Source: Bacteroidota bacterium (GTDB lineage: Bacteria; Bacteroidota; Bacteroidia; Bacteroidales; Prolixibacteraceae). Taken from it: DNA of 64,000 nucleotides. This document shows, piece by piece, positions 33,821-63,739 of this stretch. The notes beneath the pieces are model-generated. The model searched no databases and was not told the DNA's origin. It was given only the letters and a program-made list of their open reading frames with translations. Position numbers and translations under genes: made by a program. Numbering within the stretch: the first letter of the stretch is position 1; every line of letters starts with the position of its first letter. The stretch is from positions 1-64,000 of the forward strand of contig JAHEYU010000013.1 in the NCBI GenBank assembly GCA_023251435.1, written 5' to 3'.

Positions 33821-34462
33821 CTAAAGGTTATACTTTTGACGGTACAAGTAAATATCTTCGATCGTTATAACTGTCATGTTATACTGTTCGGCAAAATCAA
33901 TGATTTCGGGTAATTTCGCCATACTTCCATCAATGTTGGTTAATTCGCAAAGAATGGCCGAATCGCCCAAACCTGCAAGTCTGACAATGTCAATACTTCC
34001 TTCAGTATGTCCACTACGATCGAAAACCCCGTTTGCACATGCTTTTAATGGAAAAATATGTCCTGGATGTGCTAAATCATCAGCTTTTGCGGTATCCGAA
34101 ATGGCAGTCCGAATGGTCTGAAGACGGTCGGCTGCCGAAACTCCGGTTGTTACACCTTCCTTTGCTTCAATCGAAATGGTAAATGCCGTCTGATTTTTGC
34201 TGGTATTGGCGGTAACCATTGGGTGTAATTCAAGTTCCGCACATTTCCCGGGAGTCAGGCATAAACAAACTATTCCGCTGCATTCACGAATCATTAAAGC
34301 CATATCGGCAACGGTCATTGTTTTTGCAGGATAAATCAGGTCACCTTCGTTTTCGCGATTTTCATCATCAACCAACAATATTCCTTTTCCTGAATTTAGA
34401 TCATCAATCGCCCGATTGATACGCTCTTCGAAGTTTGAACCAAAAATTTGAATAGATTGCAT
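33821..34462 (-). CDS. ribB: 3,4-dihydroxy-2-butanone-4-phosphate synthase
   Basis: A 213-aa cytoplasmic enzyme that turns ribulose 5-phosphate into the four-carbon unit of riboflavin. The DHBP-synthase motifs are complete: [22 protein letters not shown] (about 24-45), the conserved SGIVCLCL segment (about 64-71), and the C-terminal [14 protein letters not shown]. No fused GTP cyclohydrolase II domain is present, so it is RibB alone. It stands alone under an FMN riboswitch, which explains its control. The start ATG has AAGGG immediately upstream, which the riboswitch can mask. Confidence 0.95.
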
Positions 34463-46400: not shown

Positions 46401-46568
46401 CTGACAGGCATTTCAGGAGAATTTACCGTGGAATGGTTCAATCCGGTGCTGGGTGGAAAACTACTAAAAGGAAGTATAAAAACTGTGAAGGCCGGAAAAA
46501 TGGTGGCATTGGGAAATGCTCCGTCAAAGGCCAATCAGGATTGGGTTGTTGTTGTCAGGAAGAAATAA
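43407..46568 (+). CDS. DUF5060-type multidomain glycoside hydrolase, exported
   Basis: A 1053-aa exported protein. Signal peptide (about 1-22); a CBM-like beta domain (about 30-225, NQPGRYYVWVRCYSSGSEDNG); a second beta region (about 255-430); DUF5060-type domain (about 445-560, WHKVTLTLDGPF); a TIM barrel (about 600-960) with Glu in LNWNIGEENTQST and Glu in WVVANDEQGSA as candidate acid/base and nucleophile; and a small C-terminal domain (EFTVEWFNPVLGGKLLKG). Relatives with this layout are putative glycosidases of varied substrate. It is the last gene of the GntR operon and ends at a shared terminator. Confidence 0.82.
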   Translation: MKLKSFLALGLFLFNATALLQAQTEKPIVNDQLIFEEKNGVVAVEAELFYKQSLTEIRQWYITSSGKLPSVTPNPDPEYIAGASGNAYIEILPDTRVTHSDKITDGINFSGTPGKMAVVHYKLKINQPGRYYVWVRCYSSGSEDNGLHVGFNNTWPEHGQRMQWCDGKNAWTWASKQRTEKEHCGVPKEIYLDIDKAGVHDIQFSMREDGFDMDKFILTNNMDYIPEGEGPAMKISAGKLPAPFPKVAAVAPKESPAAPQSKLTYFEQLTKTVTGNLALKAAQFPVEGTKFYVDKNWLAINPEQNKEATTTTIFPYESASYDLVFAGVGENDGQSTFQVLVDGQDVGKYSTPISKSSFEEGTQYNDLWEGISIKKGDKITVISKVGSKDGQEYSRGRWAGIIFAQVTKGKDVLEKSKTLSTKQNVGSAAVVNGVVQAATEGNAEQPVVVIKDGKGEVAISGELKQWHKVTLTLDGPFATETDTRPNPFTDYRMTVTFTHESGSPSYQVPAYFAADGSAGETSASEGNKWRAHLSPDKTGKWNYKVSFLKGAMVATADMPWMKTLAPYNGIEGSFTVTETDKAGRDFRAKGRLEYVGKNHLQFKGSGEYFYKAGADAPETLLAFEDFDNTITMKPKVPIKKYTAHIQDYKEGDPSWKNGKGKALIGAVNYLAGKGANAFSFLTYNAGGDGDNVWPFVSRNEKFNYDCSKLDQWQIVFDHGQSKGMYLHFKTQETENDDNIKGHDKAELIPEALDGGDLGPERRLYYRELIARFGYLLALNWNIGEENTQSTEAHVEIAKFFHKNDPYRHNVVLHTYPNEQDKRYTPLLGNKSELTGLSLQNDWAVVFKQTLKWVTESNKAGKPWVVANDEQGSAAKGVPADPGYKGFDASTVGYDIHDIRKQTLWANIMAGGAGVEYYFGYQLPENDLVMEDFRSRDMSWDYCRNAINFLADYKIPFQEMKNRDALIGNTDQNKDKHCLAKDGEIYLVNLAYTKTTSLDLTGISGEFTVEWFNPVLGGKLLKGSIKTVKAGKMVALGNAPSKANQDWVVVVRKK

Positions 46569-46660: not shown

Positions 46661-49600
46661 TTACTGTACTACGATATTGTGGGTCGAAATATTATTGTCT
46701 GATTTTACCTGAACAACAATCAAACCTTTTAATTTCAGTGCTTTAACATCGAGTTGCAGAGAATCATTTGGCGCATGTGAATTATATAAAACCAATCCCA
46801 CCGAATTAACTATATTAACCTCTTTGTGTTTCAATCCGTTTGGGAAAACAATATTCAAGGTTTCTGATACAGGATTTGGATATATTTCGATATCATTTAA
46901 TCGTATCAAATTATTTGAAGTAACCATATTGGTAACCTTGATATTGGTGATGTAGTAAAATTCATCTCCAAAACTTGTTGCACATCTAACAATTATCTCA
47001 AGTTTTTTCCCTGTAACACCTGAAGCTGAAACTGTTTTCAGGCTAAAAGATCCGTTAAGTTGGGCAATTGGCTTTTCAACTCCACCATCGATCTTGTAAA
47101 ATATTCTACAATAATCTGAATTATCGGCTCCAACCCCTTCTAAGTTAGCAGAAATCATTACACCACCCGGGGCACATGAAATATCTATAGGTCCAAACGT
47201 TTTATTGACAGTAGCTTTATTTACAGTAAAACCTGCATCAGTCCATGGAAATTCACAACCGGCGGTTTCGACAAAATAGGCAATTAATTGTTTATCGCTT
47301 TCAATTGTAAACTTGTAATAAATATCTGACGAAACCATTACATTGTTTTCCATCCAACGAACAAATCGATAACCTGCCTTTGGAATTGCCTTCACTATCA
47401 CTTCATCGCCCGGATTGTAGAGTCCTGCACCACTGGTACTTCCTTTGGCATCATCGTTCGACGAAAGGCTTACGTTGAAGCTTTTATCTCCGCAAATAGG
47501 TGAGCCGGTGCCTCCAAGATCGGTATAATCCTTTAGCACAGCGGCATCAGCAAACTTCCAGTCTGGTTTAATTTGCATGTTTCTGAATGAATCTCCGTAG
47601 TAATCTTTTTCCATTGACCTGGTGTAAGCTATCCATTTGCAATATGCTTTGCTCATTTCTTCTCTGGCTTTAACAGTTTGTCCGGCTTTTAGAAAGGTTG
47701 CTCCTCTTACTTTATGAGCGTAATACAGACTTAGATAAGCCATCTGCCTGATATTATTAACTGCCATTTCCAAATCGACATTTCCATCACTACTCATGGT
47801 GCTAACAAGAGAAAGGGCTTTTTCAGCATCGGCCTGCATCTCGTCAGCAACTGTATATGACGACTTTTTACCATTGCAAGTGTTTGCTGCTGAATTCGGA
47901 ATGTCGCAAAGGTCGGAACCATTGGCAACAGTTGTTGCTTTTGCATTTGGATGAGTGCTTAGATTAGCAAAATCATATACAGTTCTAAAACCAGTACATC
48001 TACCCGGGTCGCTGTTACAACCTTCAGGATACCAATCAAAATCGAGACTCCACTCTCTCATTATAAGTTCTGTAACCCTGGGTAATGGTCGCGATGAGAG
48101 CGTCCATGCCTGAAAAAGGTTATCGGCAGAAACCGAAGGGAATCTTTTTGCCAGCATATTTATAAATACGTCGTCGCTTACTTGTGGATTGTATGAAATG
48201 CGGCCCCAAAGCATTTCCATATACCATCTCCGCTCTACTTCCAGTTGGCCATTCAATGCCTGATTTTTATAGAAATAGGTACGACTTGGAGTATAGCCGT
48301 CTGAACCAATATACATTCCTGTTACCGCTTGCTTATTGGGGATGCCAGCCATGTAGTCGCGGACAAATTTGGGGTCGCCCCAGTTAATGTAGAAATAATC
48401 GTCGTTACGAATGGTTAACCATGTTTTTGCACCAAGGCTATTAATCGTGTTTATAGAACTTGTTGTCCAGGCAGGCTTTGGGGTTGAGTACATGTGAGCC
48501 TGTGCATATTTAACCGAATAATTTGATGTTACATTCGGAACCGTTTTTAGGGGTGCAAACTTTTCATTCCAGGTTTCGACCGATGTACCGATTCCCCTGT
48601 GAATCAGATTGAATTTCCGGGTTGGGTTTGCGGTAAGATAATCTTTTACCGCCTTACCGTAAACTTCCCATGTCCATTGTGTTTTCAGGTTGTTATCATT
48701 ATTAAAGCCTTGCTCCGAACCCATCATTCCATCGCCTGCAGAAATTCCAAAGCCATCCAGTTCAGGGTAGGTGTTAATAAGTGCATACATGCTTTTATAA
48801 CTGTAATCTTTTGTGGCTAAGTTGTTTCCGTTTGCAGTAAGCGTTGGATACTGGTCCTTCGCATAATCGAGATACACATTCCAGTTAAAGAAATAAAATT
48901 TCATACCACGACTGTGGGCGTACTGCATTACTTCGCGCCAAAAAGCAACTCTTTGGTCATGATTTAATGCCAAAATAGTTCCATTATAGAGTTCTATATT
49001 GGGCAAAGACGCTTTTGGATAATCGGTCAATTTTACAAGCGCCGGGAAAGGGTGATGAACCCACACCGACAATACGTTGTAGCGATAACGGGCTTGCTGG
49101 TCAATCAACTTTTTCCAGAACGTCATATCCCAAATATGTGGGATGGCTTTTTGTGTTGAAGTAGAAGACCATCCGCCCACATAAGTAGGAATACGTTTGT
49201 CGAGCGGCATGTTGAGTTTCATACCACGGTTTAGTAAAAATGGGGATTCCTGGCTATTGTAGATCCCGCTAAATCCGTTTGCAGAGATATTTTCGGCAAT
49301 TTGCAAACCACCATACATTGCACCGTTTGCATCACCCCCAAGCACCCAAAATGAAGTCTGAGGCGTGGTTGTTGTGCGCAAAGCATAAGCTTGTTCCCCC
49401 AAACCAGAAGGAATTGTTCCACTTTGACTTTTAAGGATATCAGTCACATTGGTATTAGTTGCCAATGCAATAACGACCTTCCTTTTGGCATAAGAGGCAT
49501 CAAGAGATGATAATGAAAGCATTTCTACCGTGAAGCTTTTTGCCTCAAGTGCAATTTTAACATCTTCGGCGGCAAATTTGCATTGCGCCGCATTCGAATC

Positions 49601-49702
49601 GAAAAACACCCCAACCGTTTCGGCAAATAGCATTGCTGGCATGACAAGTGCCATGATACACGTTGTGCAAATCCGCACTATTTCATTTTTAAGCATAATC
49701 AC
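46661..49702 (-). CDS. Tandem GH-like paralogue 1, with InlB-like repeat and T9SS tail
   Basis: A 1013-aa secreted protein. Signal peptide (about 1-27); an alpha/beta domain (about 28-145) ending FWVLGGDANGAMYGGLQIAENI, like the N-domains of GH67, GH84 and GH115 enzymes; a TIM-barrel-like core (about 155-560) with FFNWN (271-275), DGFGISAGD (316-324), LIHR (366-369), AHMYSTP (402-408), IRNDDYFYINWGDP (431-444) and YIGSDGY (464-470); a helical domain with a CX9C pair (LCDIPNSAANTC). Only this paralogue adds an InlB-B-like repeat (about 735-795), a further beta domain and a T9SS tail (about 940-1013). Function unassigned. It is last in the - strand series. Confidence 0.75.
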   Translation of the reverse strand: MIMLKNEIVRICTTCIMALVMPAMLFAETVGVFFDSNAAQCKFAAEDVKIALEAKSFTVEMLSLSSLDASYAKRKVVIALATNTNVTDILKSQSGTIPSGLGEQAYALRTTTTPQTSFWVLGGDANGAMYGGLQIAENISANGFSGIYNSQESPFLLNRGMKLNMPLDKRIPTYVGGWSSTSTQKAIPHIWDMTFWKKLIDQQARYRYNVLSVWVHHPFPALVKLTDYPKASLPNIELYNGTILALNHDQRVAFWREVMQYAHSRGMKFYFFNWNVYLDYAKDQYPTLTANGNNLATKDYSYKSMYALINTYPELDGFGISAGDGMMGSEQGFNNDNNLKTQWTWEVYGKAVKDYLTANPTRKFNLIHRGIGTSVETWNEKFAPLKTVPNVTSNYSVKYAQAHMYSTPKPAWTTSSINTINSLGAKTWLTIRNDDYFYINWGDPKFVRDYMAGIPNKQAVTGMYIGSDGYTPSRTYFYKNQALNGQLEVERRWYMEMLWGRISYNPQVSDDVFINMLAKRFPSVSADNLFQAWTLSSRPLPRVTELIMREWSLDFDWYPEGCNSDPGRCTGFRTVYDFANLSTHPNAKATTVANGSDLCDIPNSAANTCNGKKSSYTVADEMQADAEKALSLVSTMSSDGNVDLEMAVNNIRQMAYLSLYYAHKVRGATFLKAGQTVKAREEMSKAYCKWIAYTRSMEKDYYGDSFRNMQIKPDWKFADAAVLKDYTDLGGTGSPICGDKSFNVSLSSNDDAKGSTSGAGLYNPGDEVIVKAIPKAGYRFVRWMENNVMVSSDIYYKFTIESDKQLIAYFVETAGCEFPWTDAGFTVNKATVNKTFGPIDISCAPGGVMISANLEGVGADNSDYCRIFYKIDGGVEKPIAQLNGSFSLKTVSASGVTGKKLEIIVRCATSFGDEFYYITNIKVTNMVTSNNLIRLNDIEIYPNPVSETLNIVFPNGLKHKEVNIVNSVGLVLYNSHAPNDSLQLDVKALKLKGLIVVQVKSDNNISTHNIVVQ

Positions 49703-49821
49703 TACTTTTTACAAAAAAAACTTCAAAAAATGCATTGCTCCAAAATTATTCGAACAAATAGCTAAATCGGGATAGTAATATTTCATCTTGGGTATATTCA
49801 TCGACCAAAACACAAATTTCT

Positions 49822-52800
49822 TTATTTAAAACCCAATTTTTTAAGTTCAATTTTCTTATACATCGACGAAATTCTATTTGCATCAAACTCCTTTGATTGC
49901 AACCGTTTAAAATACTTTTCGGCCTCAACCAGATTTCCGGCGTTGTAATAACTTTCACCAATATTGTAAATAAGTTCAGTTTTCGATATGTAAGATGAAC
50001 CGGGGCCATTGGGTTGTTGAAATTGCATTAAACTCTTAAAGGCTTCTGCGGCCTCGGCACTTCGCCCTGCTCCGGTAAGTATCATCGCCAAAATATACTG
50101 AAACTGCTCTTCTTGTCCTTGTGAGATTTCTATCGAGCGTTTCACCAGCTCAACAGCATCGTTCATTTGTTGTGGATTAACAATTGAATTATCGATACGA
50201 TAGTACTCTATAAGACCATTTAAATAGGCAAACAATGCTGAATTATCATTGGGGTTTAATTCATTCATCATGCGCAATTCATCTAGTTGCGATTCTCTTA
50301 ATCCTGCATCGGGCAATCGTAAATCCTGAGATATTTTTGCCAGCATTGACAGAGCCTCCTGATTTTCAGGATTCATTGTTAGCCCTTTTCTTAAAGCCGT
50401 ATAGGCAATAGCAAAATCGCCAATATGCGAACCACTTCGGTAACGGGCTATGTTCAGGTAGTTTTCGAATGTCAAGGTGCGCTGCTTCCCGTATTCCGAA
50501 AACCATAAATTTTTATCCTGAAAGGAAAATCGCTCATCCAGGCTATCTAAAACAGTAACCGATTGGTGCGTGAAAAGTGCAATTGGGGCTAAAAATTCCA
50601 GGGGCGATTTGTCGGCATTGTTCACTTCACTTTTTGTGTAAGCATAAGGATTGTTACGCGCCGAAATCACCTGGGTAGAGAGGAATGTGGGCACATCGAA
50701 TATCTTAATCCGGGATAAATCCTGTGCTATTTTGGGCTGATTGATCTTTAGCTCCATCGCATCAAAATCTATTGACAGAGGATTTGAGGATGCTAGAATT
50801 ATAATGTCAGCATCGGATGCTTTCCAGATAGAAACATGAGGGAAAACGCTGCTTATGGTACTCAAAACAAGTCTGAAAATATCGTTATTAACATCATAAG
50901 TATGAAACCATTGCGTTAGTACGCCGTTTGGGTTTAGCCGAGCTTTGCAAATATTAAAAAACTCTACGGAATACAAATTGCTTATTCCTGCAATCCAGGG
51001 GTTAGAAGGCTCGCTAATGATATAGTCGTATTTTTTCGAAGATGTTTTAAGTTGTGTGATGGCATCGTCGATGTAAATTTTCACACGGGGATCGGCCATG
51101 AAATTATTGTTTTCCCTAGCGAAAAAGTGGTTGCATTCTACCACCTCTGATGCAATTTCAACCACATCGAGTGATTTTACAGGATGGCGAAGCACAGAGC
51201 CACAGGTAATTCCACTTCCTAAGCCAATTACAAGTGCATCACCCGAATTTGGGACAAGCATCAAAGGAATCTGACCCAATAGTATTTGAGTATTCAAATC
51301 GGCAACAGAACTGGCATCGGCCTTGCCATTGATAACCAAAGTTTTTTGAATGGTATCGCCAAATTTCGATTCCCGAATGGCAACATTGGCATTTATCCCC
51401 TCTTTGTGCCAAAGTATTTTTTGACCTTCATTTTGCTGTTTTTTCAACTCGCTGTAAGATGGAACGCCTTGGGTATATAAGGTGCGAAACACTCCCGAAA
51501 TTAAAAAGTTCTGATTCCAATTGGGAATAAACACCTTATATCCAACCGCAAATAGAACAAAAGTGATTGCAAAACCCATCTTTAACTGGCTTGATACTCT
51601 TGCTTTCATTAAAATTATTAACCCGAGCACTCCATTCAGAAGTACTCCGATTTCGAGTGTTGACTTAATTCCCAATAACGGGATTAAAACCAGACTGGTA
51701 ATCAATGTACCTGCAACCGAACCAATGGTGTTGATTGAGAAAATTCCGCCAATCGATTTGCCTAAAACCTTCATATCGTTATTGGCTATGCGGCTTGCAA
51801 CAGGAAGCGACATGCCCGAAAAAATGGTAGGCACAAGCATTATCAGGAAACAGAACAAAAATTCATACGTGAGAAAAGTTGAAAAATTCTCCGGACGGTT
51901 AGGGATTTGTGCCGATAATCTGGTTAGAAAATAGGGCAATCGCTCATAAAGCGGGAGCATCAGTATCATCGAAAAGGCAGTACCAAACTGACATAAGGCT
52001 AAAAATGCAACCAGATTTTTGATTTTTTTTATCATGAACGATACAATCAAGCTTCCTATGGCAATACCGCTGATAAAAGCGATTAACATTACTGTAAAAG
52101 AGTAGGTTGTAGAACCAAGAATATTAGAAAGTAACCGTATCCAGGCCAATTCGTAAAGCATCGCTATAAATCCCGATGCCAAAGCAGTATATATGGCAAT
52201 ACGTATGGCAGTTGTTGAATAGATTTGTGGATTTGTATCTTCTTTGTTCGCAGTTGAAGTTTTTTCAGGAATGATGTTCCTGAAAGATTTTGAAACAACT
52301 ATCGCTGCCAACCCAATCACAATATTAACCAATGCAGCAATCCATACGGTACTTTCCACGCCATATTTGCGGATAAGAAAAAAGCCTGCGAGCCCGGTGC
52401 CAATAACAGCTCCAAAGCTATTGATATAGTATAGCACGGCTACATCCTTTCCCGAGTCATTGATGCGCCTGGTAAAAAACTTCGTCAGAATAGGTAGCGT
52501 TCCTCCCATTAAAAATGTAGGAAGAATTAGTGTGATAAAGCTAAGCAAAAACTTAAGGGTAAGTATTCCACCCTTATTTGCACCATCGCCAAACGAGGTT
52601 GCCGTGTGAATAAACAGATTTCCAACAATTTCGATTATAAAAGGATAGGCCAAACAATAAATTCCAATACCCACCTCGAGCAATCCATAAAGCTTTAATT
52701 GATTCGAAACCTTGTCGGAATATCCTCCCAAATAAAAAGCACCAAGCGCCAATCCGCCCATGTAGGTTGCCAGCACAATCATGTGCGACCAGGCCGTACT

Positions 52801-52911
52801 GCCTATAAATAAAGCCAGATATTTTGACCAGGCTACTTCGTAAATAAGTCCGCAAATCCCCGATAGAATAAAGAGAAATATTACTACAATTTTGATATTT
52901 ACAGACTTCAT
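49822..52911 (-). CDS. Fused MFS / spermidine-synthase-like / TPR membrane protein
   Basis: A 1029-aa inner-membrane protein. Residues about 1-490 hold some 14 helices in two MFS-like halves (SGICGLIYEVAWSKYLALF at the start, ALASGFIAMLYELAWIRLL at the second half). About 530-750 form a spermidine-synthase-type methyltransferase fold with the nucleotide loop DALVIGLGSGITCG and YDYIISEPSNPWIAG, where polyamine synthases have a catalytic Asp. The C-terminal 250 residues are TPR-like (GESYYNAGNLVEAEKYFKRL). Such fusions are widespread but their reaction is unknown. Finding it among glycosidase-like genes is unusual. Confidence 0.85.
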   Translation of the reverse strand: MKSVNIKIVVIFLFILSGICGLIYEVAWSKYLALFIGSTAWSHMIVLATYMGGLALGAFYLGGYSDKVSNQLKLYGLLEVGIGIYCLAYPFIIEIVGNLFIHTATSFGDGANKGGILTLKFLLSFITLILPTFLMGGTLPILTKFFTRRINDSGKDVAVLYYINSFGAVIGTGLAGFFLIRKYGVESTVWIAALVNIVIGLAAIVVSKSFRNIIPEKTSTANKEDTNPQIYSTTAIRIAIYTALASGFIAMLYELAWIRLLSNILGSTTYSFTVMLIAFISGIAIGSLIVSFMIKKIKNLVAFLALCQFGTAFSMILMLPLYERLPYFLTRLSAQIPNRPENFSTFLTYEFLFCFLIMLVPTIFSGMSLPVASRIANNDMKVLGKSIGGIFSINTIGSVAGTLITSLVLIPLLGIKSTLEIGVLLNGVLGLIILMKARVSSQLKMGFAITFVLFAVGYKVFIPNWNQNFLISGVFRTLYTQGVPSYSELKKQQNEGQKILWHKEGINANVAIRESKFGDTIQKTLVINGKADASSVADLNTQILLGQIPLMLVPNSGDALVIGLGSGITCGSVLRHPVKSLDVVEIASEVVECNHFFARENNNFMADPRVKIYIDDAITQLKTSSKKYDYIISEPSNPWIAGISNLYSVEFFNICKARLNPNGVLTQWFHTYDVNNDIFRLVLSTISSVFPHVSIWKASDADIIILASSNPLSIDFDAMELKINQPKIAQDLSRIKIFDVPTFLSTQVISARNNPYAYTKSEVNNADKSPLEFLAPIALFTHQSVTVLDSLDERFSFQDKNLWFSEYGKQRTLTFENYLNIARYRSGSHIGDFAIAYTALRKGLTMNPENQEALSMLAKISQDLRLPDAGLRESQLDELRMMNELNPNDNSALFAYLNGLIEYYRIDNSIVNPQQMNDAVELVKRSIEISQGQEEQFQYILAMILTGAGRSAEAAEAFKSLMQFQQPNGPGSSYISKTELIYNIGESYYNAGNLVEAEKYFKRLQSKEFDANRISSMYKKIELKKLGFK

Positions 52912-52957
52912 AGATATTTCTGAAATGAGCTAATTGCTATTTTCTAAAACTAAACTT

Positions 52958-55141
52958 TTATTTACAATCAGGGATACCTACTCCACCCAGATCGGTGTAA
53001 TCCTTCAATTGCCAGGCATCAGCATAATGCCAGTCGGGTTTAATTTCAACCGTTCTAAATCTATTGCCTTTATACATGGCATCCATTGAATTTACATATT
53101 TCATCCACCAACAGTAAGCTGAACCCATGGCCTCGCGTGCACTTTCTGTTTGGTTGGCTTTTTTAAAGGTAGCTGCACGTATTTTATACGCAAAATGAAT
53201 TCCCAGATAAGATAATTGTTTGATATTATTTAATTTAACTTCCAATTTCGCATCACCCTGACTTTTTAGATCTTTGATTAAGGCAAGTGCTTTTAGGGCA
53301 TCGGCTTCCATTTCGTCGGCTAGCTGATAAGTGGTTTTTGCAGTTCCACAAGTTCCGGAAGCAGATTTTGCAACACTGCACAGATTCGAAGACGATGCCC
53401 TGGCTACTTCTGTACCCATAAAATCATTAAGGAATCTAAAATTGGAGTTTCCATCGTTTGGATACAAAGAAGCTTCGGCATACCAATGGGCATCCAAACC
53501 CCAACTTCCTTGTGTTAGTTCCTGAACCTTAGGCAACTGACGTGAAGCCAGCGCCCATGCTTTAAATAGTATTTCGGAGGATACTTGTGGAAAGCGTAGC
53601 GCCATGTGTTTTTTGAAAACATCGTCGGAAATATTTTTATTATAAGCTGTACGCCCCCACAACATTTGTATATACCAGTTCCGCTGAATCTCAAGCTGCC
53701 CGTTCATGGTTGTATCTTTACACCAGTAGGTTCGGGTAGGGTGGTAAATGTCGGAACCGATATTGAAGCTATTGATTACCTGACGGTAAGGGATATTTTT
53801 CAAATACCCACGTACAAATTCGGGGTCGCCCATATCCATGTAAAAATAATCGTCGTTGCGTAAGGTTAACCAGGTTTTTTGACCGGCATCAGCAGCATCT
53901 TTCATATCAGTCTCATACCATTTGGGCGTAAGGGTCGAATACATGTGCGCATTGGCATATTTTACAGAGTACTCAAACTTCATATTGGGCAGCTTTGTAA
54001 TTGGACCCCAATCTTCGTACAATTTCAGAATTCCTGCACCAAGTCCGCGATGAATCATGGTAAATTTTCTGTCAGGGTTAGCAAGAGCGTACTCGTATGC
54101 AGCTTGTCCATAAGCCTTCCATGTCCAGGGACCTCTTGAATCTTTCGGGAGTTTCATATTATCGCCTGCACTAATTCCAAAACCATCCAATTCGGGATAA
54201 GTTTCGAGTAGAGCTTTCATACTTTTACTCAGGTAATCAATTGTTGTAGGGTTGTCTTCTTTTTCGGTTATTACACCCGGATACATATCTTCGGCATATT
54301 CAGCACAAACATTCCAACAGAAAAAATAGAACGAAAAACCACGGTTGTGGGCGTAGGTCATTACCTGACGCCAAAAAGCAATTCTTTTTTCGAGCGTGAG
54401 TGTGGGGTCAGCATAACCAAAGAAGCCTTCAATACTTGGCAAACAGGCCTTTTCGTATTCGGGAACCTTAACCAGGGCCGGAAATGGATGATGCACCCAC
54501 ACCGACAAAACATTGTATCGGTTGCGGGCCTGCTGATCAAACCAGGCTTCCCAGAATTTCATATCCCAAACATTCTCAACGGCATACTGGGTTGAAGTAT
54601 TACCCATATACCCCGAATAAGTAGGTACTCTTCTATCCATTGGCAAATTAAGTTTTACGCCGCGCTGCTTAAAGTCGGGCGACACCTGCTCGTTATAAGT
54701 ACCTGACAAACCATCGAAAGTAATATTCTCTGCCAATTGCAATCCACCATACATTGCACCATTCACATCGCCACCAAACACCCAATATGAGCTTTGCTTT
54801 TGTGTCGTAGTTTGTAGTGTGTATGCTTGTTCTCCTAAGCCATCGATCACCTTTCCTCCTACTTCAGTAAACAATTTTATTATCTTTTTATCCGATTGAA
54901 GTGCGATGACGATTTTTTTGTTGGAATAGCCCGATTTAAGCTTCGACAATTCGTTCATTTCCACCTTAAATCCTTTCGATTCGAGAGCAGACTTTACATC
55001 GTTGGCAGCAAATTTTATTTGCGGTACCGAATTGTCAGAGAATATTCCTACGGTTTCTGCAAAAAGCAAGGCTGGTATTGTGAGAAGCATGATTACCAGT
55101 GTGCTTATTCGCTTAATATTTTTTTGAAACTTGGTTTTCAT
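52958..55141 (-). CDS. Tandem GH-like paralogue 2
   Basis: A 727-aa exported protein of the same family, clade A. Signal peptide about 1-28; N-domain to WVFGGDVNGAMYGGLQLAENI; core motifs FFCWN, DGFGISAGDNM, MIHRGLG, AHMYSTLTPKW, LRNDDYFYMDMGDP and NIGSDIY (Gly after Asp replaced by Ile, unlike the others). The CX9C pair (LCSVAKSASGTC) is kept, and it ends LKDYTDLGGVGIPDCK. It is first in the second transcription block, upstream of the MFS fusion gene, with a terminator before it. Confidence 0.75.
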   Translation of the reverse strand: MKTKFQKNIKRISTLVIMLLTIPALLFAETVGIFSDNSVPQIKFAANDVKSALESKGFKVEMNELSKLKSGYSNKKIVIALQSDKKIIKLFTEVGGKVIDGLGEQAYTLQTTTQKQSSYWVFGGDVNGAMYGGLQLAENITFDGLSGTYNEQVSPDFKQRGVKLNLPMDRRVPTYSGYMGNTSTQYAVENVWDMKFWEAWFDQQARNRYNVLSVWVHHPFPALVKVPEYEKACLPSIEGFFGYADPTLTLEKRIAFWRQVMTYAHNRGFSFYFFCWNVCAEYAEDMYPGVITEKEDNPTTIDYLSKSMKALLETYPELDGFGISAGDNMKLPKDSRGPWTWKAYGQAAYEYALANPDRKFTMIHRGLGAGILKLYEDWGPITKLPNMKFEYSVKYANAHMYSTLTPKWYETDMKDAADAGQKTWLTLRNDDYFYMDMGDPEFVRGYLKNIPYRQVINSFNIGSDIYHPTRTYWCKDTTMNGQLEIQRNWYIQMLWGRTAYNKNISDDVFKKHMALRFPQVSSEILFKAWALASRQLPKVQELTQGSWGLDAHWYAEASLYPNDGNSNFRFLNDFMGTEVARASSSNLCSVAKSASGTCGTAKTTYQLADEMEADALKALALIKDLKSQGDAKLEVKLNNIKQLSYLGIHFAYKIRAATFKKANQTESAREAMGSAYCWWMKYVNSMDAMYKGNRFRTVEIKPDWHYADAWQLKDYTDLGGVGIPDCK

Positions 55142-55183
55142 GAGTAGTTAGTTTGTTGGAAATGAATTGTAATGCAATTATAA

Positions 55184-55209
55184 AAACCGACGGATTAACC
55201 CGTCGGTTT
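55184..55209 (-). terminator. Rho-independent terminator after paralogue 3
   Basis: AAACCGACGG (55184-55193) and CCGTCGGTTT (55200-55209) form a 10-bp stem with a 6-nt loop, and on the - strand a T-rich tail follows. It divides the - strand series into two blocks. Confidence 0.8.
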
Positions 55210-55224
55210 ATGTCTGTTTCGAAT

Positions 55225-57441
55225 TTACTTACAGTTTGGAATACCAACACCGCCAAGGTCGGTATAATCTTTTAATACATCGGCATCGGCATACTTCCAG
55301 TCGGGAAGAATTTGCATATTTCTAAACGCAGTTCCATGATAATCTATTTCCATCGATCGGGTATACGACAGCCATTGACAATATGCTACCGCCATCTCGT
55401 CGCGTGCTTTATCTGTTTGTCCGGCTTTTAGAAATGTTGCTCCTCTCACCTTGTGGGCATAATACAAACTAAGGTATGCCATTTGTTTGATATTATTTAT
55501 TGCCCCCTGCAAATCCTGACTTCCGCCACTCTTCATTTTATCAACAATTTTAAGAGCAGTTTGAGCATCCGCCTGCATTTCGTCGGCTACAGTATAGCTC
55601 GACTTTTTACCGTCGCAGGTGCCTGCTGCCGAGTTGCTGATATCGCAGAGATTGGAGCCTTTTGCTACGGTTGTTAACTTGGCATTTTTATGCGTACTCA
55701 TGTTTGCAAAATCGAATACCGTTCTAAAACCGGTACATCTACCCGGGTCGCTATTGCAACCTTCGGGATACCAGTCGAAATCGAGGCTCCATTTATCCAT
55801 AATAAGTTCTGTTGCACGAGGCAAAGGTCTCGAGGCTAGTGTCCATGCCTGAAACAGATCAGCTCCTGAAACTGTAGGGAATCTTTTTGTAAGCATATTT
55901 TTAAACACATCGTCGCTCACTTTCGGGTTATACGAAATTCGTCCCCATAGCATTTCCATATACCAACGTCGTTCAACCTCCAATTGTCCATTCAATGCCG
56001 GATTTTTATAAAAATAAGTCCGTGTTGGCGTATATCCATCCGAACCAATGTACATTCCTGTTACAACTTCTTTGTGAGGAATACCCGCCATAAAATCGCG
56101 TACAAATTGGTGGTCGCCCCAGTTAACGTAGAAATAGTCGTCGTTACGAACTGTTAACCAGGTTTTATCACCCTGGTCTTTAATCGCTTTAATCGAACTT
56201 GTTGTCCAACTTGGAGTTGGAGTTGAATACATGTGCGCCTGTGAGTATTTTACCGAATAGTTTGTAGATCCATTCGGAAGTTCTTTGAGAGGAGCATATT
56301 GCTTACTCCAAATTTCGGCCGATGAGCCAATGCCTCTGTGAATCAGGTTAAACTTTCGGTTTGGGTTGGCCTTTAGATAATCGTATACTGCTTTGCCCAT
56401 CGCATCCCAGGTCCACTTGGTTTTTAGGTTGTTATCGTTATCAAATTCCTGATCTTTGCGCTGCATACCATCTCCGGCCGAAATTCCAAAACCAGCAAGG
56501 TCGGGATAGGTAGCGATAAGCGCCTGCATGCTCTTATACATGTAATCCAATGTTGTAGTATTTGTGCGAGCTTCGGTAATATTGGGATATTGGGTTCTGG
56601 TGTATTCGAGATGAATGTTCCAGTTGAAGAAATAGAATTTCATACCACGATCGCGCGCATAAGCCATCACTTCGCGCCAAAAAGCCACGCGCTGTTCATG
56701 ATTCCATTCTTTTACATACCCATCAAATCCTTCAATATTTGGTAAACATGCTTTTGGATAATCCGGTAATTTTACCAGAGCCGGAAATGGATTGTGTACC
56801 CAAACCGACAACACATTGTAACGATAACGAGCTTGCTGGTCAATCAGTTTTTTCCAGAATGTGATATCCCATACATGTGGAATTGCCAATCCGGTTGAAG
56901 TTGACGACCATCCACCAACATACGTAGGAATTCGTTTGTCGAGCGGCATGTTGAGTTTCATTCCCCGGTTCAACATAAATGGTGTTTCCTGATTGTTGTA
57001 AGTACCGGAAAATCCATCGGCATCGATGTTTTCAGCAATTTGAAATGATCCATACATGGCACCATTTGCATCGCCACCCAACACCCAATAAGAGGCTTTT
57101 TTCTTATTGGTAGTGCGTAAGCTGTATGCCTGCTCACCCAAACCAGTTGGAATGGTTCCACCTTCGGCCGTAAGTAACTTTGCAACATCGGCATTTGATG
57201 CCAGAGCAATAACCACTTTTTTGTTCTTATAGCCCGGGTTCAACTTCGATAACGCATTCATTTCCACCCTAAACCCTTTAGATTCAAGTGCAGTTTTCAC
57301 ATCGGCGGCGGCGAATTTTATTTGCGCTATCGAATTGTCTGAAAATATGCCTACTGTTTCAGCAGAAACAACAGTTTGTAAAGCTAATGCCAATACAATA
57401 CTGGTGAAGATGCGTGTGATTGTAATTTTTGATAAAAACAT
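55225..57441 (-). CDS. Tandem GH-like paralogue 3
   Basis: A 738-aa exported protein, clade A and the closest relative of paralogue 1 (shared GGWSSTST, FWKKLIDQQARYRYNVLSVWV, GCNSDPGRCTGFRTV). Signal peptide about 1-27; all core motifs present: DGFGISAGDGM, LIHRGIG, AHMYSTPTPSW, VRNDDYFYVNWGD and YIGSDGY. It ends at LKDYTDLGGVGIPNCK, exactly where paralogue 1 continues into extra domains, so it shows the basic unit. It lies 35 nt after the GH43 gene and ends at a strong terminator. Confidence 0.75.
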   Translation of the reverse strand: MFLSKITITRIFTSIVLALALQTVVSAETVGIFSDNSIAQIKFAAADVKTALESKGFRVEMNALSKLNPGYKNKKVVIALASNADVAKLLTAEGGTIPTGLGEQAYSLRTTNKKKASYWVLGGDANGAMYGSFQIAENIDADGFSGTYNNQETPFMLNRGMKLNMPLDKRIPTYVGGWSSTSTGLAIPHVWDITFWKKLIDQQARYRYNVLSVWVHNPFPALVKLPDYPKACLPNIEGFDGYVKEWNHEQRVAFWREVMAYARDRGMKFYFFNWNIHLEYTRTQYPNITEARTNTTTLDYMYKSMQALIATYPDLAGFGISAGDGMQRKDQEFDNDNNLKTKWTWDAMGKAVYDYLKANPNRKFNLIHRGIGSSAEIWSKQYAPLKELPNGSTNYSVKYSQAHMYSTPTPSWTTSSIKAIKDQGDKTWLTVRNDDYFYVNWGDHQFVRDFMAGIPHKEVVTGMYIGSDGYTPTRTYFYKNPALNGQLEVERRWYMEMLWGRISYNPKVSDDVFKNMLTKRFPTVSGADLFQAWTLASRPLPRATELIMDKWSLDFDWYPEGCNSDPGRCTGFRTVFDFANMSTHKNAKLTTVAKGSNLCDISNSAAGTCDGKKSSYTVADEMQADAQTALKIVDKMKSGGSQDLQGAINNIKQMAYLSLYYAHKVRGATFLKAGQTDKARDEMAVAYCQWLSYTRSMEIDYHGTAFRNMQILPDWKYADADVLKDYTDLGGVGIPNCK

Positions 57442-57476
57442 TTTGATTCGTATTAGAATTAATTAAACTTAGCACA

Positions 57477-59291
57477 TCAATCCACAAATTTGATCCAATT
57501 TAAATTAAGTATTTGAGAGGCATTACTATATTTTTCTTCCTCTTCACCTCTGAATACCAGGAATATATGATTAACACCCGCAGGTGCATTCACCATGCAT
57601 TCTTTGGTCACCCATTTTTGTAAGCCTTCAGTATTTTCAAACTCACAGTTGCCCAACAGGGTTCCTTTTTCGCTATCCAAACGGATCTCAATACTGCCAG
57701 GTTTTAGCGAGGATAATCTGGCCTGAAATGTCAATGAGTTATTTGCTTTCGGGCCAAAATCAATTTTATAGGAAGAATAACTCAAATTTTTAAGATTCGA
57801 AATACATCTGATTGGTCCATCGTCTTTCGAATTACTTGTTCTAAGTACGTTATAACATATAAGATCTTCAGCCTCAATCTGCCTGAATGCACTTACTGAT
57901 GGTGCCGATGCAGTTGGTTTGGCTGCTAAAATTATTGGCTTAGCTTTAGGCGGTTCCACAATAGCACCGGTTGAAGTAACGGTTAACCAATCAAGATTTG
58001 CAATATTCCCAGCTACTCCCTTATACACAAGGTAAATGTTTGTAAGTCCCTGTTTGTTTTTAAGTTTTGTTGACACAGTTTGATAGGTCGACAGACTTCC
58101 TGTATTGGGAACTGCAATTTTACCCAGTACTTTTCCTGTAGGTTTATCGTGACGAATTTCGATGATACCACCATTATTAGCTGAAGAAACAAGAATGTTT
58201 ATGGTTGCTTTTGCAGCAACATTAAGAACTCTTGGATAATAAAGTGATGCATTATTAGTCAGGTTACTAACAACAAATCCCGATGCAATCTCCTGTTTTC
58301 TTGTTCCATCCGATGCTGCAAAATACCATTCAGCCTCTATTTTTTTTGAACAATCGTACTGTCCTACCCCAATGAATGAATCACCAACATCGCCATCGGC
58401 AAAAATATCGCCATTGTCTTTATAATGCACATAAGTTAAATGTGTTTTGCGGAAAAATTTACCCACATCGCCCATTCCAAATGCACAATAGGTTTGATTG
58501 TTCCAATTAAAAATTGTTGGGTGATCAATCCAATTTTTATAAAATTTACCTCTGTATGTATATGGCCCATAAATGTTCGTGGCAGTTTTATAGCTGGTAC
58601 CGTGTCCGTTCAGGTAATAAACCCCATTGCGTTTGTGCATAAAACCTCCATCTCCCTTCCAATCAACAGTGGTATGGATAAGTTCTTTGGGTTCCTCTGC
58701 CAACGATATCATATCATCATTTAGTCTGGCAATTTTATAAGGAAATCCGGCTGTTATAAGATACGGAGTTTTGTTCGCATCATCATCAATAAAAACCGTT
58801 GGATCATAGCTGACGCCTATTGACTTACCCAACGCGTCTTTATATGGGCCTCCGGGACCATCGGTACTTACCGCTATACCTGTATTCCAATTTCCTGATA
58901 CATAAAAGTAATATTTGCCATTTCTTTCGGCGCCATCAACCGCCCAGGCATTATTGGTTGGACCGACCCACATATCTTTCGGAAATAAATTGAATTCCAA
59001 TTCCCAATGCACCAAATCAGACGAAGACCAGATCCACCAATCATACATTCCATAAAAACTTTCAACAGGTTCTCTGTCGTGCGATGCAAAAAGATATGCT
59101 TTGTTATTGAAAATGTGAATGTGTGGATCGCAAACGCCCATCCCCTGAATAATGGGATTGTTAACGACTTTCTCTGCTGAAGAGCCTTTGGTATCTTTAG
59201 GTTTTGAATTCTTACTGAATAGGAAATGTGGATTTAAAACAAAAACCGTTGTTGCAATTACTGCACATACATAAATCTTTAATTTATTCAT
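57477..59291 (-). CDS. GH43-like enzyme with two CBM6-like domains
   Basis: A 604-aa exported protein. Signal peptide (about 1-26); five-bladed propeller (about 45-345); two CBM6-like beta-sandwiches (about 345-440 and 470-604). The base Asp in VCDPHIHIFN and the pKa-modulating Asp in VSYDPTVFIDDD are present. Where GH43 enzymes carry the acid Glu (EGP followed by a KRNGxYYL pattern), this protein reads GDGGFMHKRNGVYYL, an Asp. It may be an altered arabinofuranosidase/xylosidase/galactosidase or a binding protein. It is set between paralogues 3 and 4 with gaps of 27-35 nt. Confidence 0.82.
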   Translation of the reverse strand: MNKLKIYVCAVIATTVFVLNPHFLFSKNSKPKDTKGSSAEKVVNNPIIQGMGVCDPHIHIFNNKAYLFASHDREPVESFYGMYDWWIWSSSDLVHWELEFNLFPKDMWVGPTNNAWAVDGAERNGKYYFYVSGNWNTGIAVSTDGPGGPYKDALGKSIGVSYDPTVFIDDDANKTPYLITAGFPYKIARLNDDMISLAEEPKELIHTTVDWKGDGGFMHKRNGVYYLNGHGTSYKTATNIYGPYTYRGKFYKNWIDHPTIFNWNNQTYCAFGMGDVGKFFRKTHLTYVHYKDNGDIFADGDVGDSFIGVGQYDCSKKIEAEWYFAASDGTRKQEIASGFVVSNLTNNASLYYPRVLNVAAKATINILVSSANNGGIIEIRHDKPTGKVLGKIAVPNTGSLSTYQTVSTKLKNKQGLTNIYLVYKGVAGNIANLDWLTVTSTGAIVEPPKAKPIILAAKPTASAPSVSAFRQIEAEDLICYNVLRTSNSKDDGPIRCISNLKNLSYSSYKIDFGPKANNSLTFQARLSSLKPGSIEIRLDSEKGTLLGNCEFENTEGLQKWVTKECMVNAPAGVNHIFLVFRGEEEEKYSNASQILNLNWIKFVD

Positions 59292-59318
59292 TTTTCACTT
59301 CTATTTTAAATTTACTTT

Positions 59319-61466
59319 TTAAAAAGTAGGTATCCCTACACCACCATTATCATGATATTCTTTTAATACAACATCGTCTTGAAAATGCCAGTCAGGCATT
59401 ACAGGATTAGTACGCTGATTGGCTTGTCCCATATACATACTATCCATCAAATTTGTATAGTTCATCCACCAACTGTATGCTTTACCCAGTGCGGTTGTGG
59501 TGTTCGAAGCCTGGCCAGCCAATTTATAAGTAGCTCCACGAATTTTTTCAGCATAATACAACGACAGGTACGACAATGCTTTTATGTTGTTGATCGCCAC
59601 TCCGAGTTCTGTATTTGGTTCGGCTTTCATGGTACTGATTGTTTTTAAAGCTTCCTTTGCATCAGCTTCAATTTCATCAGCAAGTTGATACGAACTCTTT
59701 TTACCTTCACAATTGCCCGCAGCACTATTTTTTATATTGCAGAGCAAAGAACCTGGACCAATATCAGCTGCTGCAAATAAATCAACTGTTGCAAAACCCT
59801 TATAGGTAAGGCAAGCCTCCGGATACCATTTAAAATCCAAATCAAAATCTTCATGCATCAATTCTGTTGTTTTTTGTATTCCGCTCGACGCCTTGCTCCA
59901 TGCGGCAAACAACTCATCAGATGAAGCAACCGGATATTTCAACTTAATATGATTTTTAAATAGCAAGTCGGGTGTTTGTGGGTTATAAGCTAACCTGCCC
60001 CAAATCATGTTCATATACCATTGTCGTTGAACCTCAAGTATTCCTTGCGAAACGCTATTTTTGCAGAAGAAAGTACGGGTTGGACAAAAACCATCAGAGC
60101 CAATATAGAATCCGGCAAAATGTTTTCCATATTCCATCATCCCATTCAGGTAGGTTCGTGCATAAGAAGGATCGCCCCAGGTATGGTAAAAAAAGTCGTC
60201 GTTACGAACTGTAAACCAGGTTTTCATGTCGTTCTCCACCAGTTGCTTCGATGTGTTGTATTTATCGAAGTGTTTGGGAACAGGGGTTGAATACATGTGC
60301 GCTTTTGAGTATTTGTACGACATCTCAAAAGTTACGTTTGGCAGCTCGAAAAGTCCGGCAAATGTTTTCTTTATATCCGCAAGGCTTGTCTGATGCCAGC
60401 GGTGAATAAACCGTAGCTTACGTTGGGGGTTTTTAACTGCATAATCGTACATAGCCTTTCCGTAAGCAGCCCATAAAAAATCCTGATTGCTTTTATTTTC
60501 GCCATTGGTAACGCCAAACCCATCGAGGTCGGGATATGTTTCGAGCAGCTTCAGCATACTTTTGTACATATAGGCCTTATTGGCATCCGACGTTTCAGCA
60601 TTGGCAAGCCCATATTTCCCATGAGCGTTAGCGACCCAAACGTTCCAGTTGAAAAAAAGAAATTCGAAACCACGGGCATGTGCGAGTTTCATCACCTGTC
60701 TCCAGAAAGCGATCTTTTCTTCGATAGACATTTTCTTCGAATATCCATTAAATCCGGTTACATCCTGAATAGCCAAATCGGGATAATCGGGCAGTACAAC
60801 CAACGATGTAAACGGGTGGTTGTTCCATACAGAAACCATGTTATACCGGTGGCGTGCCATTTCATCGAACCAAGTCTCCCAGAAAGTGATGTCCCAAACA
60901 TGGGGTATTGCTTTCTGGTACGATGTTCCCTTGCTGTTACTTTCATAAGTCGGACTTTTTTCGTCAAACGGAAGATTGAGTTTAATCCCTCGCTTTAAAA
61001 TCGCAGGAGACTCCTGACTATTGTAAGTTTCCTTATAACCATTAAATTTGATATTTTCGGCTATTTCTAATCCGCCATACATGGCACCATTTATGTCGCC
61101 ACCCAAAACCCAATATGATTTTTGTGGCGAGTTGGTAGTCCGTATTCCGTAAGCCTGTTCGCCCAAATTGGTTGGAATGGTTCCACCTTGTAAGGTTAAT
61201 AATTTTGCAACTTCAGCATCCGAAGCCAGCGCAATTATTATTTTCTTTTTCGTGTATTTCGCATTTAAAGCCGAAATCGAATTCATTTCAACCTTAAAAC
61301 CTTTCGATTCGAGAGCGGTTTTTACATCACCGGCAGCAAACATTATTTGCGCCACATTCGAATCAAAAAATACACCCACAGTTTCGGCATAAATTACAAT
61401 TGGTGAGGAAATCGCCAATGCAATGATAATTAAGAAGCGAACGATTGATATTCTTTTTAAGAACAT
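59319..61466 (-). CDS. Tandem GH-like paralogue 4
   Basis: A 715-aa exported protein, clade B. Signal peptide about 1-27; N-domain to WVLGGDINGAMYGGLEIAENI; core FFNWN, DGFGVTNGENKS (Glu where clade A has Asp), FIHRWHQTS, AHMYSTPVPKH, VRNDDFFYHTWGDP and YIGSDGF. CX9C pair LCNIKNSAAGNC. It ends LKEYHDNGGVGIPTF. It shares WFDEMARHRYN and GFNGYSKKMS with paralogue 5 rather than with clade A. The gap to paralogue 5 is 86 nt with no terminator. Confidence 0.75.
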   Translation of the reverse strand: MFLKRISIVRFLIIIALAISSPIVIYAETVGVFFDSNVAQIMFAAGDVKTALESKGFKVEMNSISALNAKYTKKKIIIALASDAEVAKLLTLQGGTIPTNLGEQAYGIRTTNSPQKSYWVLGGDINGAMYGGLEIAENIKFNGYKETYNSQESPAILKRGIKLNLPFDEKSPTYESNSKGTSYQKAIPHVWDITFWETWFDEMARHRYNMVSVWNNHPFTSLVVLPDYPDLAIQDVTGFNGYSKKMSIEEKIAFWRQVMKLAHARGFEFLFFNWNVWVANAHGKYGLANAETSDANKAYMYKSMLKLLETYPDLDGFGVTNGENKSNQDFLWAAYGKAMYDYAVKNPQRKLRFIHRWHQTSLADIKKTFAGLFELPNVTFEMSYKYSKAHMYSTPVPKHFDKYNTSKQLVENDMKTWFTVRNDDFFYHTWGDPSYARTYLNGMMEYGKHFAGFYIGSDGFCPTRTFFCKNSVSQGILEVQRQWYMNMIWGRLAYNPQTPDLLFKNHIKLKYPVASSDELFAAWSKASSGIQKTTELMHEDFDLDFKWYPEACLTYKGFATVDLFAAADIGPGSLLCNIKNSAAGNCEGKKSSYQLADEIEADAKEALKTISTMKAEPNTELGVAINNIKALSYLSLYYAEKIRGATYKLAGQASNTTTALGKAYSWWMNYTNLMDSMYMGQANQRTNPVMPDWHFQDDVVLKEYHDNGGVGIPTF

Positions 61467-61552
61467 GTTTTTCTAAGTTTATTGAATAATTACTTTGTGT
61501 GCTGATATTTTTTTCAATTCCTCCATTTTTATCGTTGACCGAAAAGAAATAG

Positions 61553-63739
61553 TTAGTTGCTTACGCCATCGCACGAAGGAATTCCAACTCCTCCGTTATC
61601 ATGATATTCTTTCAACACATTAGCATCCTGATGGTGCCAATTGGGGAAATCATCAACTCGTTGCATGGTCATCCCATCGTACATTTGATCCATCAAATTT
61701 GAATATTTCATCCACCAGCAGTATGCCTTTGCCAGGGATATAGTTACCTCTGCAGGTTTACCTGCCTTTTTGTCGGTTGCAGCGCGAATTTTAAAGGCAT
61801 AATAAATGGTAAGATACGACATGGCTTTAATGTTGTTGATCGTTACGCCAAACTCGGTGTTAGGATTAATGGTTGTTATATCAACAAGTTTTAAAGCTGC
61901 CAGAGCATCTGCCTCAATTTCGTCGGCAACCTGATAGGTGCTTATTTTTCCATTGCAGTTATTTTCTGCACTGTTTGCGAAGCCGCATAACGATGATCCT
62001 GGCGACACGTTACTCGAATTGAACTTATCAATAGTCACGAAACTGTTAGAACTTCTACCAGAATGGCAAGCTTCGGGCCACCAATGAAAGTCGAGATTTA
62101 AGTTTCCTGCTATCAATTCCGACATTTTAGGAATTCCACTTGAAGCTTTTTTCCAGGCATCGAACAGACTTGTCGAAGATATATCCTGATATTTTAAAGC
62201 CATGTAGTTTTTAAAAACATCGTCCGGGGTATTGGGATTGTACGAAAGTCTTCCCATTAGCATAAACATATACCATTGGCGTTTAACCTCCAGAATGCCT
62301 TGTGATACACTGTTTTTGCTGAAAAACGAACGTGTTGGGCTAAATCCGTCAGAGCCCATATAGAAACCTTTTAAATAGCTTGTTTTACCGGGCATGCCAT
62401 TAATATAGGCACGAACAAAAGCTGGATCGCCCCAATTGTGATAATAAAAATCGTCGTTGCGAACGGTAAACCAAGTTTTTAAGTTATTGGAAGTAAGATC
62501 TGATTGGTCGTTGCCATCCCACCATGTTGGCGTCGGACATGCATACATGTGAGCCTGAGAGTATTTAAACGACATGCAAAAATCGACATTTGGGAGTGTG
62601 AAAAGCGGTTGAAATACTCCTTTTAAATCAGAAAGTTTTGTGAAATGAAAACGATGGATAAAACCAAGTTTACGGTTGGGATTAAGAAGCGCATAATCGT
62701 AAACTGCCTTTCCATAGGTTTCCCATAAAAACTTTTCGTTGGCAACAACGTCTCTGGTCATTTTCTCGCCTGCGGTAATCCCAAAACCATCTAAATCGGG
62801 ATATGTTTCCAGCAATTTTTTCATGCTTTTGTACATGTATTTTAATGTTGCCGGATTATCAATTTTACTGGTGATGCCATATTTGTCGGTTGCGCCATAA
62901 GTAAACAGGTTCCAATTAAAGAAGTAAAATTCGAATCCCCGGGCATGTGCGTAAGCCATTACCTTTTTCCAGAAATCAATTTTCTGATCCATGGTCATGG
63001 TTTTCGTAAATCCATTAAATCCGGTTACGTTTTGTATTGCAACATCCGGGTATTCATCCATTTTAACAAGTGAAGTAAAGGGATGGCAAAGCCATAACGA
63101 AACCACATTGTAGCGGTTTCGCGCCATTTCGTCGAACCATTCGGTCCAATAACTCATATCCCAGATATTTGAAATTGCATTTTTATAGGAAATACCTTCG
63201 AAAGTTCCATTGTCGTGTTTGCCGTAGGTTGGATTATTCGCATCTAATGGATAGTTGAGTTTTATCCCCCTTTTCAAGATTGCCGGAGCTTCCTGATTAT
63301 TGTAAGTCCCAGAAAAATCGTTGAACTTGATGTTTTCAGCAATTTGTAATCCACCATACATAGCTCCGTTGGCATCGCCACCAAGAACCCAGTAAGACTT
63401 TTGCGGTTTTGAAGTTGTATGCAAGCCGTATGCCTGTTCGCCTAATCCGGTTGGGATTTTTTCACCTTGAGACGATAGTAATTTTGCAGCAGTTTTATCA
63501 GATGCCAAAGCAATTACCACCTTTTTGTTCTTATACGACTTTTTGAGAGAGCCGATCGGAAGCATTTCGACTGTATAGTTTTTAGACTCCAACGCTGCTT
63601 TTACATCTGTAGCTGCAAATTTTATTTGAGCCACATTCGAATCAAAAAATACACCTACAGTTTCGGCTAAAACTATTGCTGGTAAAGCAAGAACCACAAT
63701 ACTTATTGTGCAAATACGCACCATCCATTTTTTTAGCAT
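61553..63739 (-). CDS. Tandem GH-like paralogue 5
   Basis: A 728-aa exported protein, clade B, and the first gene of the - strand series. Signal peptide about 1-26; N-domain to WVLGGDANGAMYGGLQIAENI; core FFNWN, DGFGITAGEKM (Glu), FIHRFHFTK, AHMYACPTPTW, VRNDDFYYHNWGDP and YMGSDGF. CX9C pair LCGFANSAENNC. It ends LKEYHDNGGVGIPSC plus a short tail. It has no sorting tail, so it is periplasmic or exported another way. Confidence 0.75.
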   Translation of the reverse strand: MLKKWMVRICTISIVVLALPAIVLAETVGVFFDSNVAQIKFAATDVKAALESKNYTVEMLPIGSLKKSYKNKKVVIALASDKTAAKLLSSQGEKIPTGLGEQAYGLHTTSKPQKSYWVLGGDANGAMYGGLQIAENIKFNDFSGTYNNQEAPAILKRGIKLNYPLDANNPTYGKHDNGTFEGISYKNAISNIWDMSYWTEWFDEMARNRYNVVSLWLCHPFTSLVKMDEYPDVAIQNVTGFNGFTKTMTMDQKIDFWKKVMAYAHARGFEFYFFNWNLFTYGATDKYGITSKIDNPATLKYMYKSMKKLLETYPDLDGFGITAGEKMTRDVVANEKFLWETYGKAVYDYALLNPNRKLGFIHRFHFTKLSDLKGVFQPLFTLPNVDFCMSFKYSQAHMYACPTPTWWDGNDQSDLTSNNLKTWFTVRNDDFYYHNWGDPAFVRAYINGMPGKTSYLKGFYMGSDGFSPTRSFFSKNSVSQGILEVKRQWYMFMLMGRLSYNPNTPDDVFKNYMALKYQDISSTSLFDAWKKASSGIPKMSELIAGNLNLDFHWWPEACHSGRSSNSFVTIDKFNSSNVSPGSSLCGFANSAENNCNGKISTYQVADEIEADALAALKLVDITTINPNTEFGVTINNIKAMSYLTIYYAFKIRAATDKKAGKPAEVTISLAKAYCWWMKYSNLMDQMYDGMTMQRVDDFPNWHHQDANVLKEYHDNGGVGIPSCDGVSN

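Follow-up and report, generated by a model that had tools for sequence, protein, structure and literature searches.

Five tandem paralogs related to GH138

The window analyzed here is a stretch of 64,000 nucleotides from a Prolixibacteraceae bacterium (assembly GCA_023251435.1, contig JAHEYU010000013.1, positions 1 to 64,000 of the forward strand); its coordinates are those of the contig, abbreviated C55 below. It encodes five paralogous proteins, A to E, which together with a sixth copy, F, we interpret with about even confidence as exported glycosidases of a family that is sister to GH138, probably removing acidic sugars, with specialized subtypes that are found jointly in other genomes as well. 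As a preliminary description of this locus had held, the five genes stand in tandem on the minus strand, all as intact open reading frames: A (46661..49702, 1013 amino acids), B (52958..55141, 727 amino acids), C (55225..57441, 738 amino acids), D (59319..61466, 715 amino acids) and E (61553..63739, 728 amino acids). The listed start codon of A is GTG, and an ATG two codons downstream is an equally likely start. Identity to C in the alignment of the five is 73% for A, its closest relative, 55% for B, 51% for D and 50% for E, and a common family profile scores A-E at 1302-1385 bits, which excludes a chance resemblance. The same alignment contains the previously noted motifs W-N, G-F-G, I-H-R, A-H-M-Y, R-N-D-D and G-S-D, with some exceptions (GSDI in B, AHMYAC in E). 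Each of the five proteins has at its N-terminus a hydrophobic segment that stops close to A-E-T-V-G, and Sec signal peptides are predicted on each of them when the sequences are read by eye, in agreement with the suggested export.

A Pfam scan of A-E gave no family above cut-off for the core, and the proteins had been described as matching no named glycoside hydrolase family. This was only partly right: the NCBIfam model NF049878 (alpha-d-galacturonidase) is matched by all 35 family members scanned (E <= 0.001), and a PDB search with a profile built from these members retrieves the solved alpha-galacturonidase BPa0997 at E 2.6e-48, aligned over profile positions 17-693 of 725, i.e., nearly the whole barrel-containing region; A-E are thus relatives of GH138. 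Both BPa0997 (PDB 6hze/6hzf/6hzg) and BT0997 presumably belong to CAZy family GH138. BT0997 is described as a Bacteroides thetaiotaomicron alpha-galacturonidase that cleaves an alpha1,2-galacturonic acid linkage in rhamnogalacturonan II (PMC7939467). When the family was compared by hhalign with four GH138 proteins, defined as those above the NF049878 cut-off, the probability was 100% and the E-value 2.6e-44 over 659 columns with 18% identity. One of these four proteins matches BPa0997 at E 0, which ties the model and the structure together. The homology extends across the N-domain, the barrel and the helical part, so that the architecture proposed earlier (N-domain, barrel core and helical C-terminal part) is predicted from the solved BPa0997 as well.

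Conservation was counted in a set of 58 members, comprising sequences with at least 500 bits against the A2 profile and drawn from an alignment of 75 sequences; the fragments L025_9989 and L041_1495, GH138 proper and the remoter rows (L029_6213, L039, L044 and others below 500 bits) were excluded. The remoter group is itself akin to both the family and GH138 (L044:28-2649, L029:6213-8575 and L039:9944-14842) and lacks several of the conserved family acids. Common to at least 55 of the 58 members and to all four GH138 proteins are 23 positions, including Arg369 and Lys398 (residue numbers are those of paralog C), both of which are present in 58/58 members.

The family might consist simply of divergent GH138 members with the same alpha-galacturonidase chemistry, an alternative that we regard as unlikely. 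The homology over the barrel and helical region speaks for it, as does an acid in all 58 members at the position of GH138 Glu294, and dbCAN or CAZy might file the family under GH138. However, A-E score 73.4-77.4 bits against the curated NF049878 cut-off of 1300, which among 61 relatives is passed by four proteins only, none of them in this genome; the C-terminal part of GH138 (about residues 714-893) has no counterpart in the alignment; and the column of GH138 Glu361 holds no acid in any of the 58 members. These results lower the probability that the family is GH138, but not that it works like an alpha-uronidase. The earlier suggestion of a new family therefore has to give way insofar as a characterized relative was found, and survives in the form of a sister of GH138, since the scores lie far below the membership cut-off and Glu361 is missing.

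Conserved acidic residues and comparison with other families

The homology to GH138 and the absence of Glu361 are firm. The residue aligned with Glu361 of BPa0997, which we take to be catalytic in GH138 (PDB entry 6hzg is labelled E361S), is Ala in 46, Ser in 11 and Gly in one of the 58 members, identically under four MAFFT settings, and none of positions 397-408 is acidic in more than 5/58. The glutamate of the GH138 LGEA motif (residue 294 by count), to which we also presume a role in GH138, aligns with position 324, occupied by Glu in 45 members and by Asp, a conservative change, in 13. The family has invariants of its own that distinguish it from GH138, namely Arg432, an acid at 434 (Asp 46, Glu 12), an acid at 468 (Asp 47, Glu 11) and Glu560; Asp554 is likewise found in 58/58. 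Judged from the order of the motifs, by eye and by homology, predicted strands 4, 7 and 8 would be followed by residues 324, 434 and 468, respectively.

These features lead to a more specific proposal, which we hold at slightly less than even confidence: A-E would represent a new family of glycoside hydrolases that is sister to GH138, has a rearranged catalytic set and has diversified into co-inherited subtypes, which would break down an acidic polysaccharide for which no enzyme is known so far. The rearranged set is understood as the lack of a strand-6 Glu, the acids at 324, 434 and 468 that swap between Asp and Glu among clades, and the invariant Glu560 in the C-terminal part.

The N-domain had been likened to those of GH67, GH84 and GH115. 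The GH67/GH84-type likeness stands, whereas no GH115 likeness was seen for A-E. The GH67 alpha-glucuronidase N-domain (PF03648) is matched below threshold in two of the five paralogs and at E < 0.001 in 3/35 members, and in the PDB profile search GH67 appears at E 0.028, confined to the N-domain. By hhalign, GH67 aligns over 240 columns, which end immediately ahead of the strand-4 acid, with a probability of 87% (E 3.8e-6), compared to 91% for GH138 in the same test, and strands 5-8 are not aligned with the family. The catalytic acids of GH67 are located on strands 4, 6 and 7. An ordinary GH67 assignment was rejected, since the alignment stops at strand 4 and the GH67M catalytic domain is absent from the Pfam results for A-E at E <= 1. 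The likeness to GH84 NagJ (6pv5, profile E 7.1e-4) and to GH20 (Glyco_hydro_20b, PF02838, in 6/35) is restricted to the N-domain, and the catalytic barrels of both families are unmatched.

Subtypes, evolution and distribution

A quick tree of 53 rows divides the family into recurrent subtypes. The 11 rows with Asp at position 324 (eight from elsewhere in addition to A, B and C) constitute a single clade with support 100 that is nested among the Glu types, to which D and E belong; two further Asp-324 rows (L040 and L053, with the motif LADW) fall in a different clade and were kept out of the Asp clade. Paralog A pairs with C (fork support 99), B with a gene of locus L019 (support 100; 84% identical), and D with genes of L019, L022 and L035 (support 100), while E joins the D group (support 87). 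Genes of the A/C-like, B-like and D-like kinds therefore occur together on the single contig L019. Finite Nei-Gojobori dN/dS values were obtained for 6 of 11 pairs and range from 0.068 to 0.171 (dS 0.72-2.26), the other five pairs being saturated; the copies that can be tested are under purifying selection. The idea of duplication under selection fits these orthologous subtypes.

The Asp clade is represented in eight loci (the window and L019-L025, counting the fragment L025_9989 for co-location), which correspond to six genomes because L019/L022 and L020/L025 come from the same metagenome-assembled genomes (MAGs). A Glu type is also present in the fetched stretch of seven of these loci, and the only exception, L020, is a contig of 6.6 kb. 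The nested clade and this co-location could mean that certain copies, above all A, B and C with their Asp at 324, do not hydrolyze but bind sugars or have a regulatory role, and are active only beside Glu types. We find this quite improbable: the other pocket acids are invariant in the Asp types, Asp is itself a possible proton donor, and co-location is equally expected from tandem duplication.

Paralog A differs from the other four in domain content. Its GH138-like core is followed by a divergent InlB B-repeat domain, an unassigned stretch and a C-terminal sorting tail of the type IX secretion system (T9SS), and among the 35 family members scanned it is the single one with such a tail. Since A and C form a sister pair and C has no tail, A is probably located at the cell surface and C in the periplasm.

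The previously reported five copies are real, but the count was incomplete, as a sixth copy lies in the same gene run and a profile search reveals 11 family genes in the genome (12 match rows, two of them within one open reading frame). Matches at E <= 1e-3 were found in 6 of 41 close genomes; two of these are GH138 proper (G005, G030) and one belongs to the remoter group (G006), leaving family members in G000, G009 and G038. Of 395 Bacteroidota genomes drawn as a sample, eight contain a match at E <= 1e-30, this genome included. A scan of genome contigs yielded 21 loci in MAGs of Bacteroidetes, Verrucomicrobia, Planctomycetota, Acidobacteriia, Fibrobacteria and Spirochaetaceae, some of whose phylum labels may reflect misbinning; two Bacteroidetes MAGs have up to 12 and 9 match rows. 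An origin from a phage or another horizontal element was rejected, as a tblastn search with D against 50,697 phage records gave no match and none of the 43 pattern stretches in viral contigs was confirmed as a relative. Foreign composition was rejected as well (GC of the array 0.403, compared to 0.397 for positions 1-43400). An open-access literature search (no preprints, few subscription journals) found no paper on this family.

Genomic context of the paralogs

The genes from A to SusC form a run of 19 same-strand genes, a SusCD locus ending at C55:83671, of which A-E are the downstream part. Beyond E follow, on the same strand, genes for a DUF362 protein, a PF06439 (3-keto-disaccharide hydrolase) protein, a GH2 enzyme and a glyoxalase-domain protein, then for a 2-hydroxyacid dehydrogenase, an isomerase-like protein, a glycerate kinase (above its NCBIfam cut-off), a KdgT-type permease (assigned by Pfam), an enolase-superfamily protein, the sixth paralog F (C55:75764-78445, outside the window; 893 amino acids), SusD and SusC. 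Adjacent genes overlap by 4 bases or are separated by 6-119 bases, except for two gaps of 207 and 474. A PrpR_N/sigma-54 activator gene adjoins SusC (C55:84022-85881, L014:4022-5881) and is a possible regulator of the locus. Domains of PF06439 occur in or near the locus at C55:65610-66335 (L013:5610-6335) and C55:93137-94810 (L014:13137-14810), hinting at an oxidative cleavage route alongside ordinary hydrolysis.

Two genes interrupt the array, and both are of the kinds noted previously. A fused MFS/spermidine-synthase-like membrane protein with tetratricopeptide repeats (49822..52911, minus strand; NF037959 above cut-off) lies between A and B, and a GH43 domain with CBM6/CBM35-like modules (57477..59291, minus strand) between C and D; a gene 77% identical to the latter adjoins the D-type orthologue in L035. 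The MFS/spermidine-synthase gene was rejected as a conserved partner, having no homologue near members in the compared loci. The DUF362 gene was rejected too, being found near members in G000 and G455 and near none in 4 of 8 genomes searched.

The convergent neighbor of A (43407..46568, plus strand) combines, according to Pfam, a GH115_C-like N-terminal part (sub-threshold), DUF5060 and Collagen_bind_2, and has homologues in seven open reading frames of related loci (35-62%). In 10 of 67 cases from 18 genomes, a DUF5060 gene is located no more than 10 kb away from a member, compared to 0.58 expected under uniform placement (Poisson 6.6e-10). For this count 69 member rows were typed; some short second fragments of genes already represented were excluded, as were two DUF5060 rows, in G009 (members on another contig) and in G012. 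The uniform null ignores the clustering of carbohydrate genes, and the result thus shows association rather than partnership.

A separate plus-strand SusCD locus at 2065-27727 encodes FecR, SusC, SusD, GH27-like, GH5 (with a T9SS tail), GH127, TRAP transporter parts, GH28 and GH97 proteins. An FMN riboswitch (RF00050, 34538-34657, minus strand, 109.9 bits) is located directly upstream of the ribB gene (33821-34462).

Proposed function of the family

Starting from the family homology, we infer activity, mechanism and substrate as follows. Hydrolysis of acidic sugars is likely, judging from the GH138 ancestry, Arg369 and Lys398, and the sugar-acid genes in the locus. Each paralog would cut an acidic (uronic-type) sugar off a polysaccharide, with Arg369 and Lys398 holding the substrate carboxylate and the acid at 324 (Glu or Asp, end of strand 4) protonating the leaving group. 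Glu361 may be replaced as the base by one of the acids at 434, 435 and 468, located where strands 7 and 8 end, in a mechanism like that of an inverting alpha-uronidase of GH67; the identity of this base is a guess. Paralog A, by its T9SS tail, would act at the cell surface, and the substrates of B-E would first be imported by SusCD and then cleaved in the periplasm. The released sugar would be taken up through the KdgT-like permease and degraded to glycerate, and the subtypes would cut different linkages or neighbors of one polymer.

Several observations weigh against this scheme. The GH67 alignment ends before the strand-4 acid, so the base cannot be placed by that route, and GH138 Glu396 (L048 numbering) aligns with Asp435 in two of the four MAFFT settings and falls opposite a gap in the remaining ones. 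The kdgT (TIGR00793), dehydratase and dehydrogenase equivalogs score below the NCBIfam cut-offs, so the catabolic module is only generally one for sugar acids; moreover, it adjoins the sixth copy F, at least 6.6 kb from E. Sulfatases and glycoside hydrolases for neutral sugars are also nearby, and thus the polymer need not be a uronan.

Alternatively, the proteins might be active glycosidases for neutral or sulfated sugars rather than uronic acids, with the shared Arg and Lys being structural. GH43-CBM6, GH2 and melibiase-like neighbors, sulfatases near members in 7 of 21 loci, and 35 sulfatase matches in this genome (compared to 1-24 in 14 congeners, some of them incomplete, and 30 in one order-mate) would agree with such an activity. 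We nevertheless think it improbable, given that the sulfatase counts come with no base rate, that sulfatases are common in Verrucomicrobiota and Planctomycetota, and that the GH138 ancestry and the KdgT and glycerate kinase genes point to acids.

If A-E are indeed exported glycosidases of a GH138-sister family acting on acidic sugars, the lone GH138 family would gain a large multi-copy sister with different conserved acids, spread across several phyla. Its orthologous subtypes would be ready to be expressed and used to identify the acidic polysaccharide under attack, and a genome holding as many as 11-12 copies could be interpreted as that of a specialist on this polysaccharide.

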